Shown here piece after piece: positions 51,942 to 63,462 of a stretch of DNA of 64,000 nt. The notes beneath the pieces are model-generated. The model was not told the DNA's origin. It saw nothing but the letters and a program-made list of their open reading frames with translations, and ran no database searches. The position numbers and the translations under genes were made by a program. Within the stretch, counting starts at the first letter, position 1. The number at the start of each line of letters is the position of its first letter. The stretch lies in contig NZ_FCOB02000008.1 of the NCBI RefSeq assembly GCF_001545075.1, positions 124,001 through 188,000 on the forward strand, given 5' to 3'. This stretch comes from Caballeronia ptereochthonis (lineage in GTDB: Bacteria; Pseudomonadota; Gammaproteobacteria; Burkholderiales; Burkholderiaceae).

Positions 51942-53009
51942 TCAGCCTTCGTTGTTCTGCGACGTATCGCGTGCGTCCGTGTCCTCGTTTTCGTAGGCGC
52001 CGAGGCGGTTGTACAGGGTCTTCAGGCTTACGCCGAGCGCCTTCGCCGCGCGCCGCTTGTCGCCGCCGCAGTGCTTGAGCGTGCCGAGGATGATCTGCTT
52101 CTGCGCATCGGCGAGCGGCGTGCCGACCCAGACGTTCATCGCGTCGCCCTGCGTGACCGGCTTCTTCACGCGTGACGCGAGATGCGGATGCGCGATCTCC
52201 ACCGTCTTCTCCGCGAGAATGAACGCGCGATAGACCGTGTTCTTCAGCTCGCGCACGTTGCCGGGCCACGAATAGGTGCGCAGCACGTCGAGCGCGCGCT
52301 TGCTGAACGCCTTGCTCGTGCCTTCCTGCGCGTTCATTTCCGCGAGGAAATGCTGCGCGAGCAGCTCGCGGTCCGAATCGCGCTCGCGCAGAGGCGGCGC
52401 GCGCAGCGGGAACACAGCCAGGCGATACATCAGATCCTCGCGCAAGCCGTTTTCCTTGACCGCCGCCACCGGATCCCGGTTGGTCGCCGCGATCACGCGC
52501 ACGTCCGAGCTGATGAGGTCGTTGCCGCCGACGCGAAAGAACGTGCCCGTCTCGAGCGCCCGCAGGAGCTTGACCTGCCGCACGGGCGACATTTCGGTCA
52601 CTTCGTCGAGGAAGAGCGTGCCGCCGTTGGCGTGCTCGAAGTAGCCGACGCGCCCCTGCACCGCGCCCGTGAAGCTGCCTTTCTCGTGGCCGAAGAGCTC
52701 GGCTTCGATGAGATTGTCGGGAATCGCGCCGCAGTTCACCGCGATGAACGGCGCATCCCGGCGCGCGCTTTGGTCGTGGATGGTCCGGGCGATGAGCTCC
52801 TTGCCGGTGCCCGACTCGCCGATGATGAGCGCGGTCGCGTCGGTCGCGGCGACGCGTTCGATTTGCGCGTACAACTCCTGCATCACGGGCGACGAGCCGT
52901 AGAGCAGTCCGTAAGACTTCAAGCCCGGCACTTCTCCCGCGTTGCGCTTTTTCTGCGCCGGGGCATCGCCGACCGCAACGGGCGGCGGATCCAGATCGGT
53001 TGACGCCAT
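51942..53009 (-). CDS. Sigma-54 activator without receiver domain
   Basis: 355 aa bacterial enhancer-binding protein. Only 40 residues precede the AAA+ domain, so no receiver or sensor is present. Walker A is GESGTGKE (64-71), the sigma-54 contact loop reads GSFTGA (111-116) instead of the usual GAFTGA, Walker B is LFLDEV (132-137), and YSWPGNVRELKNTVY follows. The C-terminal Fis-type HTH is HCGGDKRRAAKALGVSLKTL. Activity must be set by a partner or by level alone, as for PspF. It sits upstream of and divergent from a sigma-54-like promoter. Confidence 0.93.
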   Translation of the reverse strand: MASTDLDPPPVAVGDAPAQKKRNAGEVPGLKSYGLLYGSSPVMQELYAQIERVAATDATALIIGESGTGKELIARTIHDQSARRDAPFIAVNCGAIPDNLIEAELFGHEKGSFTGAVQGRVGYFEHANGGTLFLDEVTEMSPVRQVKLLRALETGTFFRVGGNDLISSDVRVIAATNRDPVAAVKENGLREDLMYRLAVFPLRAPPLRERDSDRELLAQHFLAEMNAQEGTSKAFSKRALDVLRTYSWPGNVRELKNTVYRAFILAEKTVEIAHPHLASRVKKPVTQGDAMNVWVGTPLADAQKQIILGTLKHCGGDKRRAAKALGVSLKTLYNRLGAYENEDTDARDTSQNNEG

Positions 53010-53492
53010 GTGTCCTGATGTGTCCTGAGTGCTTGCGAATGTGGTGGTCGGGCGGCGGTCTTCGGCGCGCGTCGGCGGATCCGGGTTGCGGCAGGTCGGC
53101 GCCGCGAGCGGCGCAGTGGCGAGTGACCGCGCGCATGGCATGTGACGCGCCGTGGCGCGCTGCCCGCCGTGCTCACGATGCACGTGAGCCGCTCTCCCTG
53201 ATCGTGCGTCGGTTCAGGATCGTCTGCCCGGCGCGGCCGGATCGTTGCAAACGAGCCTATCTCATAAACGCTATTTAACCATTCGCAACGACCTTGCGGC
53301 AATGCGCGGCCCGGAAGCGGCGCAATTTGTCCGATCGGCGTGGAGCGCTGCGCGCGCATCCGGAAAGGTTCGCCGCGCACGCAGAGAATTTACAAGGCGA
53401 CGGCGTAATTGTTACCCGTTCGACAGGTCCGCGATGCGGCAGCGCGGTGTTTCGACTCGCGCGAACATTTCCTGCACACGAGTCATCGGTTG
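53010..53492. other. Intergenic region between the activator and the stress genes
   Basis: About 480 nt without a supported gene. It should hold the promoter of the activator and possible upstream activating sites for the sigma-54-like promoter at its right end. An AT-rich patch stands at about 53255-53280. Confidence 0.4.
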
Positions 53493-53508
53493 TGGCATGA
53501 AAGCTGCG
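53493..53508 (+). promoter_or_regulatory. Sigma-54-like promoter before a membrane protein gene
   Basis: TGGCAT-GAAAG-CTGC: GG and GC are 10 bases apart as sigma-54 requires. It lies about 90 nt upstream of the ATG. The -12 element is CTGC rather than TTGC, so it is a weaker match than the otsA site. Confidence 0.45.
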
Positions 53509-53598
53509 TGATGGTTGGCAGAGCTTATTCGAAAGTGCCGCCGGCAAGCCTGCATCAACGGCGCAGGCACGAGGACGGGCGAGAGAGGCAAAGGCATC

Positions 53599-53946
53599 AT
53601 GGAAGATTTCTTCAATTTCGACGTCGCCGCGCACGAGCGCGCCAGGACCGCGCGACGGACTTGCGCGCCGTACGTGCACGGATCGCGCGGCGATCGGCAG
53701 GAACTCGCGGCGGGCGAACCGATCGACATTTATCATTGGGCCGCGGTCGCGTTGGTGACTGCGCTCATGTGCGCGGTGCTAGGCTATGCCGCAGGTACGG
53801 CCGCGCTCGCGCGCGCCGCGAACGTGACGAGCCTCGTGTTCGGCACGATGGGCGGCGCGCTGGTGGCGAGCGGCGTCGTGCGCAGCCTGCGCGCGCGCGT
53901 CGCGGCGGGCGCGCGTCTCGCCGTACCCGTCGGCAAGACGCACTGA
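53599..53946 (+). CDS. Small membrane protein of the stress cluster
   Basis: 115 aa. A hydrophilic N-terminal part (about 1-45) rich in Arg/Glu is followed by two predicted membrane helices (about 48-70, AAVALVTALMCAVLGYAAGTAA, and about 80-100) and a basic tail. No known domain is recognised. The ATG at 53599 gives the compact form; an upstream reading frame is possible but lacks an SD. It is the first gene of a co-oriented run with DUF883 and another small gene. The role in envelope stress is inferred from neighbours only. Confidence 0.6.
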   Translation: MEDFFNFDVAAHERARTARRTCAPYVHGSRGDRQELAAGEPIDIYHWAAVALVTALMCAVLGYAAGTAALARAANVTSLVFGTMGGALVASGVVRSLRARVAAGARLAVPVGKTH

Positions 53947-54020
53947 CGGCACAGACGCGTGCGTGCCGGTTCGCATCGGCCTCGTACGCATGGACCCCAC
54001 TTAGGCGAGGACTTCCCTAC

Positions 54021-62121: not shown

Positions 62122-62445
62122 TGCTTGCTAATCCTCGATTGTTCTAGACGTAGTGGGCAGGCTTGCGGACTAACAAAGCAACAGCCGTGCCATGGTCCGT
62201 CAAGCTCGCGCCGCTCCTACGTTTTTTGCCCTCGTATGCCTTCTCATCGAGCGTTTGCCAGGCTCGTTTCGCGCAGTTTTTACACGTGCTCGGACAAAAG
62301 CGCCGCGCGTTTCGCTGGCGGGCGCGGAGACCCTCGCGACTGCTCGCATACACGCCGAACATTTGTTCGGTCTCGCGCGAAAGCCTCGGTCCGACAAGCG
62401 TTGCGCGGCCTTCGCCGCCCGGGCCGATGCGGCACTGGAGTGCGC
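62122..62445. other. Divergent intergenic region between rpoN and the BON gene
   Basis: Open frames on either strand have no SD or homology. It should hold the rpoN promoter and possible upstream activating sequences for the BON gene. Confidence 0.4.
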
Positions 62446-62461
62446 CGGCACGCAAGTTGCG
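62446..62461 (+). promoter_or_regulatory. Sigma-54 promoter of the BON-domain gene
   Basis: CGGCAC-GCAAG-TTGCG matches TGGCACG-N4-TTGC in all but the first base, with correct spacing. It lies about 125 nt before the ATG. Together with the otsA site it is the strongest evidence for local sigma-54 control. Confidence 0.65.
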
Positions 62462-62584
62462 GAAGAGACCTTGCGTTTCGCGTGCTACGGCGCGGTACGT
62501 AATCGAAGAGCCGCCTCTCGCAGGTCACAAGTGAAAAGCGACCGGGGCGCGCCAGACCAGAATCGAAAAAATTGGAGTATTGCC

Positions 62585-62926
62585 ATGAAGATGACTCAAA
62601 TCGTGAAGGCAGCCGGCGGTATCGCGTGTGTGGTGTTCGCGCTGAACGTGGGCGCGCAAACCAATTCGGCATCGTCGAGCAGCAGTTCCGGCACGAGCGT
62701 CGGCCAGAAGGTCGATGACAGCGCGATCACCACCAAGGTCAAGGCCGAGCTCCTCGGCGCGAAGAACGTCAAGTCCACGCATATCCACGTGAAGACCCGT
62801 GCGGGCGTGGTGTCGCTGACGGGCACGGTGCCTTCGGCGGAGGACAAGACCGCCGCGGAGGAAGTCGTCTCGAACGTCTCGGGTGTTGCTTCCGTGAAGA
62901 ACCATCTTAAAATTGCGGCCAAGTAA
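62585..62926 (+). CDS. BON-domain periplasmic protein (OsmY-like)
   Basis: 113 aa. A signal peptide (MKMTQIVKAAGGIACVVFAL..GAQT) is followed by a Ser-rich linker (about 28-38) and one BON domain (about 42-113): DSAITTKVKAELLG, HVKTRAGVVSLTGTVPS and VSNVSGVASVKNHL. BON domains bind phospholipid membranes; OsmY, with two such domains, is an osmotic-stress protein. Here only one domain is present. Divergent from rpoN and behind a strong sigma-54 site. Confidence 0.9.
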   Translation: MKMTQIVKAAGGIACVVFALNVGAQTNSASSSSSSGTSVGQKVDDSAITTKVKAELLGAKNVKSTHIHVKTRAGVVSLTGTVPSAEDKTAAEEVVSNVSGVASVKNHLKIAAK

Positions 62927-63225
62927 TGGCATAGTTCGTATGCCCGGCTCGCCACGGCGGGCCGCGGTCGAGTGCCAGCAGTACGGAACCCGCGCGGGGT
63001 TCGACGATTCGCCGCGAAGCGGCGATGAATCGGACGAAGCGCGGGTTCTCGCATGAGGGGCGCTCGAGTCGCAGCTTTACGCATGACGCTTCACGCAGTG
63101 CGCATGACCTCGCAGCACTTCGAATCCTAAAAACGAAGTACGACCGTTCAGGACGGTACTTATACAGGTGGCTCGCGAACCCGCCGTCGCGCGACGTTCA
63201 GAGGCCCCGACAAAAGGAGCTCTTC

Positions 63226-63462
63226 ATGAAGACGAAAAAGATGGCATTGATCGGCGCGCTCGCGCTGGCGTTCTCCACGGCTGCGTTCGCGCAAGCGGCG
63301 TCGGATGCGGCAGGGGCGATGAGCGCGGCGTCGGGCGCGCACGCGAAAAAGCAGAAGGGCACGTATCTGCATCAGCAGAACAAGGCGCACAAGCTGAAGG
63401 GCGCGTCGGCCGCGGCTGCGGCTTCGTCGCTCGGCACCAACGACAAGGGTGCCCCGCAGTAA
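63226..63462 (+). CDS. Small secreted protein
   Basis: 78 aa. AAAGGAGC stands seven bases before the ATG. The signal peptide MKTKKMALIGALALAFSTAAF is cut at AFA|QA. The mature part is Ala/Lys-rich (HAKKQKGTYLHQQNKAHKLK) and has no recognised domain. A terminator begins 36 nt after the stop. Role unknown; its place suggests a stress-related envelope protein. Confidence 0.6.
   Translation: MKTKKMALIGALALAFSTAAFAQAASDAAGAMSAASGAHAKKQKGTYLHQQNKAHKLKGASAAAAASSLGTNDKGAPQ

Follow-up and report, generated by a model that had tools for sequence, protein, structure and literature searches.

A probable self-amplifying sigma-54 stress module around the second rpoN gene of Caballeronia ptereochthonis

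Introduction

Sigma-54 promoters follow the consensus TGGCACR-N4-TTGCW. In Rhizobium a second rpoN, itself sigma-54-dependent, is activated together with NifA, and in Cereibacter (Rhodobacter) sphaeroides RpoN2 and its activators serve flagellar genes. The general stress regulon of enterobacteria includes otsA, OsmY/BON, ElaB/YqjD and katE and depends on RpoS, a factor of the sigma-70 family that needs no AAA+ activator. Papers on Ralstonia quote a near-identical sigma-54 consensus (PMC4371752, PMC4676750) and report that rpoN2 expression needs RpoN1, that rpoN2 gave no phenotype in the tests made, its role being called enigmatic (PMC4371752), and that RpoN1 and RpoN2 are non-equivalent (PMC4676750). 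In B. pseudomallei, late katE expression requires RpoN2 (PMC4745423), and in a bean-bug Burkholderia with three otsA paralogues osmotic stress raises an otsA (PMC10100943). Here we analysed 64,000 nt of Caballeronia ptereochthonis (assembly GCF_001545075.1, contig NZ_FCOB02000008.1, positions 124,001 to 188,000; the window), which contain an island of a second rpoN gene (rpoN2), two sigma-54 activators (ActA and ActRR) and genes for stress-type proteins. Conserved -24/-12 sites stand before rpoN2, BON, otsA, DUF2383 and three small open reading frames (ORFs), and not before the activators or YihY. We consider it probable that the island is a self-amplifying sigma-54 stress module, in which rpoN2 and at least six nearby genes would be fired by ActA/ActRR through these sites, with RpoN1 starting rpoN2 and RpoN2 amplifying the response.

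Results

Conserved sigma-54-type sites in the island

The 7.71 Mb genome carries two rpoN genes. The window copy, rpoN2 (60634..62121, minus strand), encodes a protein 47% identical to RpoN1, the product of the other copy (G000:C45). RpoN2 has all three sigma-54 Pfam domains (AID, core-binding and DNA-binding; PF00309, PF04963 and PF04552), matches NF009118 with 780 bits against a cut-off of 396, and contains ARRTVAKYR, which we take to be the RpoN box. Two predicted activators lie in the island: ActA (51942..53009, minus strand; PF00158 4e-67 and PF02954, HTH_8), which lacks a receiver domain, and the response-regulator-type ActRR (55049..56452, plus strand; PF00072, PF00158 and PF02954). Both have an AAA+ domain, GSFTGA in the sigma-54-contacting loop and a Fis-type helix-turn-helix (HTH), the domain set of enhancer-binding proteins.

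Sigma-54-type sites were defined as 16-mers with fixed GG and GC and scored with ad hoc weights against the consensus given above, using a main threshold of 14.3, a stricter one of 15.2 and an upstream reach of 250 nt unless stated. The top score in the whole window belonged to TGGCACGGCTGTTGCT (TGGCACG-N4-TTGCT; 62177-62192, minus strand) before rpoN2. On the plus strand, sites were found before otsA (CGGCACAACTTTTGCA, 57473..57488, score 16.4), BON (CGGCACGCAAGTTGCG, 62446..62461, 15.8), a proline-rich ORF (GGGCATGCCCCTTGCT, 56576..56591, 15.4), the 53599 ORF (TGGCATGAAAGCTGCG, 53493..53508, 14.6) and the 59119 ORF (CGGAACGAGACTTGCG, 59073..59088, 14.3); the scores of the last two are equalled by a few sites elsewhere in the window. 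The site before the DUF2383 gene lies on the minus strand at 64106, just past the window end. All have the conserved GG at -24 and GC at -12, ten bases apart, that mark a sigma-54-dependent promoter.

Conservation was counted in related genomes, whose sequences are not independent. Of 168 loci from the RpoN2 search, the best 80, with named sources, were kept: 43 Caballeronia-type and 37 Paraburkholderia-type. Among these, the RpoN2 closest to that of the window came from Candidatus Paraburkholderia kirkii (95%), with Caballeronia species reaching up to 94%. Random 250-nt pieces of these 80 loci reached 14.3 in 7.9% of draws. The rpoN2 site reached this score in 80/80 loci, with both ends nearly fixed and the N4 spacer varying. 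The BON site did so in 75 of 78 loci within 250 nt and in 77 of 78 within 320 nt. Among Caballeronia loci the threshold was passed by the otsA site in 37/37, the proline-rich ORF site in 35/37, the 53599 ORF site in 34/35 and the DUF2383 site in 38/39 (Paraburkholderia, 23/32; at the stricter threshold, 20/39 Caballeronia). The 59119 ORF site passed in 30/35 Caballeronia and 11/17 Paraburkholderia loci and, at 15.2, in only 6/35 Caballeronia loci; the pattern GG[AC]A[CT]-N5-TTGC was retained in the aligned rows shown. In 14 separately searched genomes (11 Paraburkholderia, 3 Caballeronia) the otsA site was kept at 14.4 or above in every case.

The same search in the Caballeronia rows gave next to nothing before the neighbouring genes: actA 1/37, actRR 0/37, yihY 0/37 and ORF 57075 0/37 (together 1/148), ORF 63217 1/38 and the lipoprotein ORF 50541 0/35. 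The lipoprotein ORF 51062 had a sigma-54-like site in 16/35 rows. A site before ORF 54455 (yjx) was rejected, its position shifting among relatives and its -12 half being poor (6/36 pass). Beyond these loci, the rpoN2 site was found in 48 of 49 upstream regions of a family survey within 260 nt (the window included, five genomes counted twice), the exception, L201, having its site 343 nt upstream of a match that starts inside rpoN2. The site occurs in ten further genus groups (g-numbers below), some with a different neighbourhood. No comparable site was found upstream of rpoN1, where the best score was 13.0.

With both genome strands counted, the word GGCAC-N5-TTGC was found 76 times (about 1 per 100 kb), against 47 for the pattern read backwards, and three of its occurrences lie in the island (57474 plus, 62447 plus and 62191 minus). 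The Poisson P for at least three occurrences in 11.5 kb is 2.2e-4, uncorrected for the choice of place. Since the reversed pattern is itself so frequent, single nine-base words prove little, and the question of chance is decided by conservation.

The first-pass annotation of this DNA had recognised rpoN, the receiver-less activator and the response-regulator activator, and had called otsA, YihY/BrkB, BON and DUF883 genes; the Pfam domains agree with all of these. Its five plus-strand sites (53493, 56576, 57473, 59073 and 62446) were all found and are conserved in relatives, and its two exact nine-base matches before otsA and BON are present, with the third one at 62191. It had missed the strongest site, that of rpoN2 on the minus strand, and the DUF2383 site. 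YihY, which it listed among the envelope and stress types, has no conserved site (0/37, as given above).

A candidate enhancer between rpoN2 and BON

The BON-rpoN2 intergenic region measures about 0.35-0.62 kb in the alignments. Besides the two divergent sites, its longest conserved block is window 62268-62310; the other conserved parts are short stretches beside both genes and a T-rich stretch. This block holds, between the two sites, the candidate enhancer TTTTTACACGTGCTCGGACAAAAG (62277..62300), which reads TTTKBC-N8-TGTAAAA in the rpoN2 direction and forms an imperfect dyad. In 121 of 128 loci (five genomes counted twice; L201 was left out of this test), TGTAAA stands 66-113 bp upstream of the rpoN2 -24 element; it occurs in 1.1% of random 106-nt pieces. 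The distances fall into the groups 66-72, 79-82, 90-93, 103 and 110-113, in steps of about 11 bp, close to one helical turn. The modes of the genus groups are 69, 72, 79-82 and 92, with 103 and 110-113 as minor classes; compared with uniform spacing, P is 0.0004 for 10 group modes, some of the groups overlapping (Caballeronia with g1, Paraburkholderia with g20), and 0.02 for 7 distinct values. From its sequence and position, the element is likely an enhancer for rpoN2.

A matrix of the element was built from 94 distinct sites, all from rpoN2 upstream regions, and both window strands were scanned. The second-best match in the window, 53385-53410, was not used in building the matrix and scored 14.4 bits; only one of the 94 sites in the matrix scored lower. 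We regard it as a second, weaker candidate enhancer (AGAATTTACAAGGCGACGGCGTAATT as read on the plus strand; 53385..53410, element on the minus strand); it is conserved and lies 83 bp upstream of the 53493 site. Genome-wide patterns that combine TGTAAA or TTTACA with a sigma-54 site gave two matches each, and one of each pair is in the island (2/4); the 53385 element with the 53493 site is one of the two matches to TTTACA-N72..102-GGYAYN5YTGC. The other two matches lie on contigs C65 and C62, that on C65 appearing on a rough look to be inside an open frame. An inverted repeat upstream of otsA (57395-57430) was also considered as an enhancer and set aside: it follows ORF 57075, is flanked by A/T runs and is read as a terminator.

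In four g24 loci (L188, L189, L190 and L191) a common inverted repeat, GTCATGT...ACATGAC, was observed upstream of rpoN2, and a divergent sigma-54-type site, AGGTACAT-N4-TTGCT, is also present there.

The activators ActA and ActRR

ActA and ActRR are 57% identical over their shared part and have SLKTLYNRL in the HTH in common. GSFTGA was found in 36/36 actA orthologues of Caballeronia loci (above 75% identity) and, in other genera, in 15/15 matches above 57%, including the L191 match, which is in fact the ActRR gene; for actRR the counts were 36/37 and 15/16. The genome has 17 strong activator matches among 26 listed, of which 10 read GAFTGA, 2 GSFTGA, 1 GAYTGA and 1 GAFSGA, and 3 were unreadable. 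ActA and ActRR are the only GSFTGA readers among the 14 readable ones.

No kinase gene was seen beside actRR in the ORF lists of this genome. In one g15 locus, actRR and otsA are separated by a PAS hybrid histidine kinase gene, and in one g11 locus another stands after the actRR relative. ActRR may be phosphorylated by an unlinked kinase.

The locus across the Burkholderiaceae

We surveyed 120 genomes of the family, with an RpoN2 orthologue defined by at least 59% identity (the next matches, up to 49%, being RpoN1) and an ActA/ActRR-type match by E up to 1e-100. RpoN2 was found in 60 genomes; 52 of them have an ActA/ActRR-type match and the 8 others are all g11. An activator match also occurs in 15 of the 60 genomes that lack RpoN2, and 9 of these 15 are g3. 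Of the 52 genomes with both, 40 have rpoN2 and actA on one contig and within 14 kb of each other, in eight genera (g1, g7, g13, g15, g16, g17, g24 and g25); rpoN2 is apart from the activators in the 12 others, 8 of g20, presumably Paraburkholderia, and 4 of g8.

The gene order was read in 20 loci of 20 kb each. It is complete (actA-actRR-otsA-yihY-rpoN2-BON-DUF2383) in the two g15 loci, in the g7 locus and in one g16 locus, and the other g16 locus has it without otsA. The g25 and g13 loci keep the order but lack yihY and either BON or DUF2383; less is retained in g24, g17 and g11. As other genera show the same order, an assembly of the island in Caballeronia alone was rejected. In Paraburkholderia the locus is split, yet the site before otsA is retained; in P. 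xenovorans, chromosome 2 carries rpoN2, and actA and otsA are on another contig that is longer than chromosome 2.

Some loci hold further genes of interest. In the g17 locus (L205:474-5771) a GlgE-type gene and, judged by eye, a GlgA-like ORF are found about 3 kb from rpoN2 and the activators; the g11 locus L192 has, at a distance of about 5 kb, a gene of the alpha-amylase family that resembles TreY. These would be other trehalose or glycogen routes near the same sigma factor. In Candidatus Paraburkholderia kirkii (L033) and in L064, yihY was undetected between rpoN2 and the 59119 ORF and the rest of the island is kept, which may be gene decay in leaf symbionts.

Genes of the island

By family, the predicted targets include stress-protective types. 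OtsA (57543..58991, plus strand) is a trehalose-6-phosphate synthase (PF00982, 9e-131; TIGR02400 above cut-off). The BON-domain, OsmY-like protein (62582..62926, plus strand, divergent from rpoN2) matches PF04972 and, below its cut-off, the OsmY model (3.5e-17). The DUF2383 gene (PF09537; 63566..64000, minus strand) is cut by the window end and starts at window position 64018. The DUF883 or ElaB/YqjD-type gene (54021..54338, plus strand; PF05957 and PF19029, ElaB model below cut-off) lies downstream of the 53599 ORF. Three small ORFs behind sites, all on the plus strand, have no family: the membrane-type 53599 ORF (53599..53946, 115 aa), the proline-rich ORF (56691..56882, 63 aa) and the 59119 ORF (59119..59466), which encodes an acidic hydrophilic protein. 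Two further plus-strand genes stand among the targets and lack a conserved site, the small hydrophilic ORF of the 57075 frame (57114..57350) and yihY (59592..60503; PF03631, TIGR00765 above cut-off), the latter for a YihY/BrkB inner membrane protein.

Next to actA are two lipoprotein-like ORFs that resemble each other (196 and 184 aa; window 50541-51616, minus strand), and the pair keeps this place in loci of Caballeronia and Paraburkholderia. Two overlapping small ORFs (49825-50477, plus strand) immediately left of the island resemble a HicA/HicB toxin-antitoxin pair.

Discussion

In the proposed mechanism, a stress signal would lead to ActRR, by phosphorylation, and ActA binding the element between rpoN2 and BON, and the bound activators would drive the RpoN1 holoenzyme at both promoters. 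RpoN2 would then accumulate and reinforce transcription from the seven sites; the output would be trehalose-6-phosphate, the BON, DUF883 and DUF2383 proteins and the small hydrophilic ORF products. The predicted targets include rpoN2, which would make the circuit autoregulatory, and positive feedback on rpoN2 could make the response steep. We infer that RpoN2, and not only RpoN1, uses the island promoters; the gene types suggest osmotic, starvation or envelope stress as the trigger.

Several observations weigh against this model. The site weights were ad hoc and the genomes compared are related. The TGTAAA element is missing before rpoN2 in the four g24 loci, in L204 and in L205; the element matrix gave no convincing match before otsA, DUF2383 or the 59119 ORF, and a moderate score is not specific, as otsA regions (median 7.3) and the control yihY regions (4.9) both exceed their shuffles. 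The GSFTGA loop is not exclusive, three Ralstonia activators having it, AcoR included (PMC4676750). The g15 hybrid kinase had two matches in this genome, at 38-39%, to its kinase half (best 39%). The genome also carries RpoS. Finally, g11 has rpoN2 with its site and the TGTAAA element and no ActA-type match, and G099 (L238; 4.1 Mb, 100% complete) lacks rpoN2 and keeps actA, actRR, otsA and the otsA site.

There is a competing explanation, which we hold to be possible but doubtful: the sites would be real sigma-54 promoters used by RpoN1 with ActA/ActRR, RpoN2 being merely another target with its own targets elsewhere. The otsA site in G099 means that RpoN1 can presumably serve the otsA promoter, nine g3 genomes have activator-pair matches without rpoN2, and a Ralstonia rpoN1 mutation abolishes rpoN2 expression (PMC4371752). 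However, rpoN2 keeps near the activators in most genomes that have both, Ralstonia RpoN2 is not interchangeable with RpoN1 (PMC4676750), and katE expression of B. pseudomallei needs RpoN2 (PMC4745423). Since the otsA site is kept without rpoN2 in G099, it is more likely that RpoN2 amplifies the response than that it is the sole sigma factor at work. G099 is also a natural test of the added role of RpoN2.

A second explanation concerns the enhancer alone: the TGTAAA element could be the site of an unrelated repressor or of a nucleoid protein such as IHF, which seems to us rather unlikely. It would account for the presence of the element at just rpoN2/BON and the 53599 ORF, no convincing copy being found at otsA, DUF2383 or the 59119 ORF, and for its retention in g11, which has no ActA-type match. 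The dyad-like form, the position 66-113 bp upstream of -24 and the helical-step spacing fit an activator site instead, where ActA/ActRR would bind. It is very improbable that the sites are relics of ordinary shared ancestry among close species, with the genes driven by sigma-70 or RpoS promoters: RpoS is present and OsmY-like, OtsA and ElaB-like types are RpoS targets in E. coli, but the site halves are fixed while the bases between vary, neighbouring genes have no such conserved site, and the otsA site persists in Paraburkholderia though apart from rpoN2.

With the self-amplifying module as the preferred reading, the claims of the first-pass annotation can be refined. A local regulon in which sigma factor, activators and targets with conserved sites stand together holds (40/52 genomes within 14 kb), except that the activators and YihY lack a site. 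The claim that these parts travel together is true of eight genera and fails in g20 and g8. The island is not strictly self-contained: RpoN1 is also in the genome, Ralstonia rpoN2 needs RpoN1 (PMC4371752), and G099 keeps the otsA site without rpoN2. The stress label stands as far as the gene types and published work in relatives carry it.

More tentatively, the Burkholderiaceae may possess in this way a second general stress response through sigma-54, RpoN2 and the GSFTGA activators ActA/ActRR forming a private channel, switched by feedback and insulated from the GAFTGA activators of RpoN1. If true, genes usually under a general stress sigma factor would have passed to an activator-dependent and self-amplifying one, in soil bacteria and symbionts for which drought and osmotic tolerance matter. 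Many Burkholderiaceae carry two rpoN genes (60/120 surveyed), and for the second one the locus offers likely partners, targets, an enhancer and the kind of trigger. The role of RpoN2, open after mutant studies in a plant pathogen, would gain an explanation, and the question is now directly testable.

Our literature search, with most subscription journals outside it, found no description of the locus, the enhancer, the stress-gene targets or the family spread. The second rpoN, its site, its RpoN1 dependence and two activators with RpoN2 as possible target are already known from Ralstonia (PMC4371752, PMC4676750).

Among known systems, RpoN2 of Cereibacter sphaeroides is likewise a sigma-54 paralogue specialised for one target set (PMC4676750, PMC12316311), the set there being flagellar genes. 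RpoN2 of R. solanacearum (RSp1671) resembles ours in being a second rpoN with a sigma-54 site in front and RpoN1-dependent expression, and a published table gives two GSFTGA activators (Rsp1667/Rsp1668) with RpoN2 as possible target; the accessible parts of these papers describe for it no regulon, enhancer, stress role or family-wide conservation (PMC4371752, PMC4676750). The four g24 loci, which would be Ralstonia carrying RSp1667, RSp1668 and RSp1671, differ further in lacking the TGTAAA element, and otsA was not found in their 20 kb. Rhizobium rpoN2 is similarly a second rpoN tied to one activator and one programme, but in another lineage and for nitrogen fixation genes with NifA instead of stress genes. 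The RpoS regulon of enterobacteria overlaps in gene types (otsA, OsmY/BON, ElaB/YqjD and katE), whereas the island has -24/-12 sites and ATP-dependent activators.

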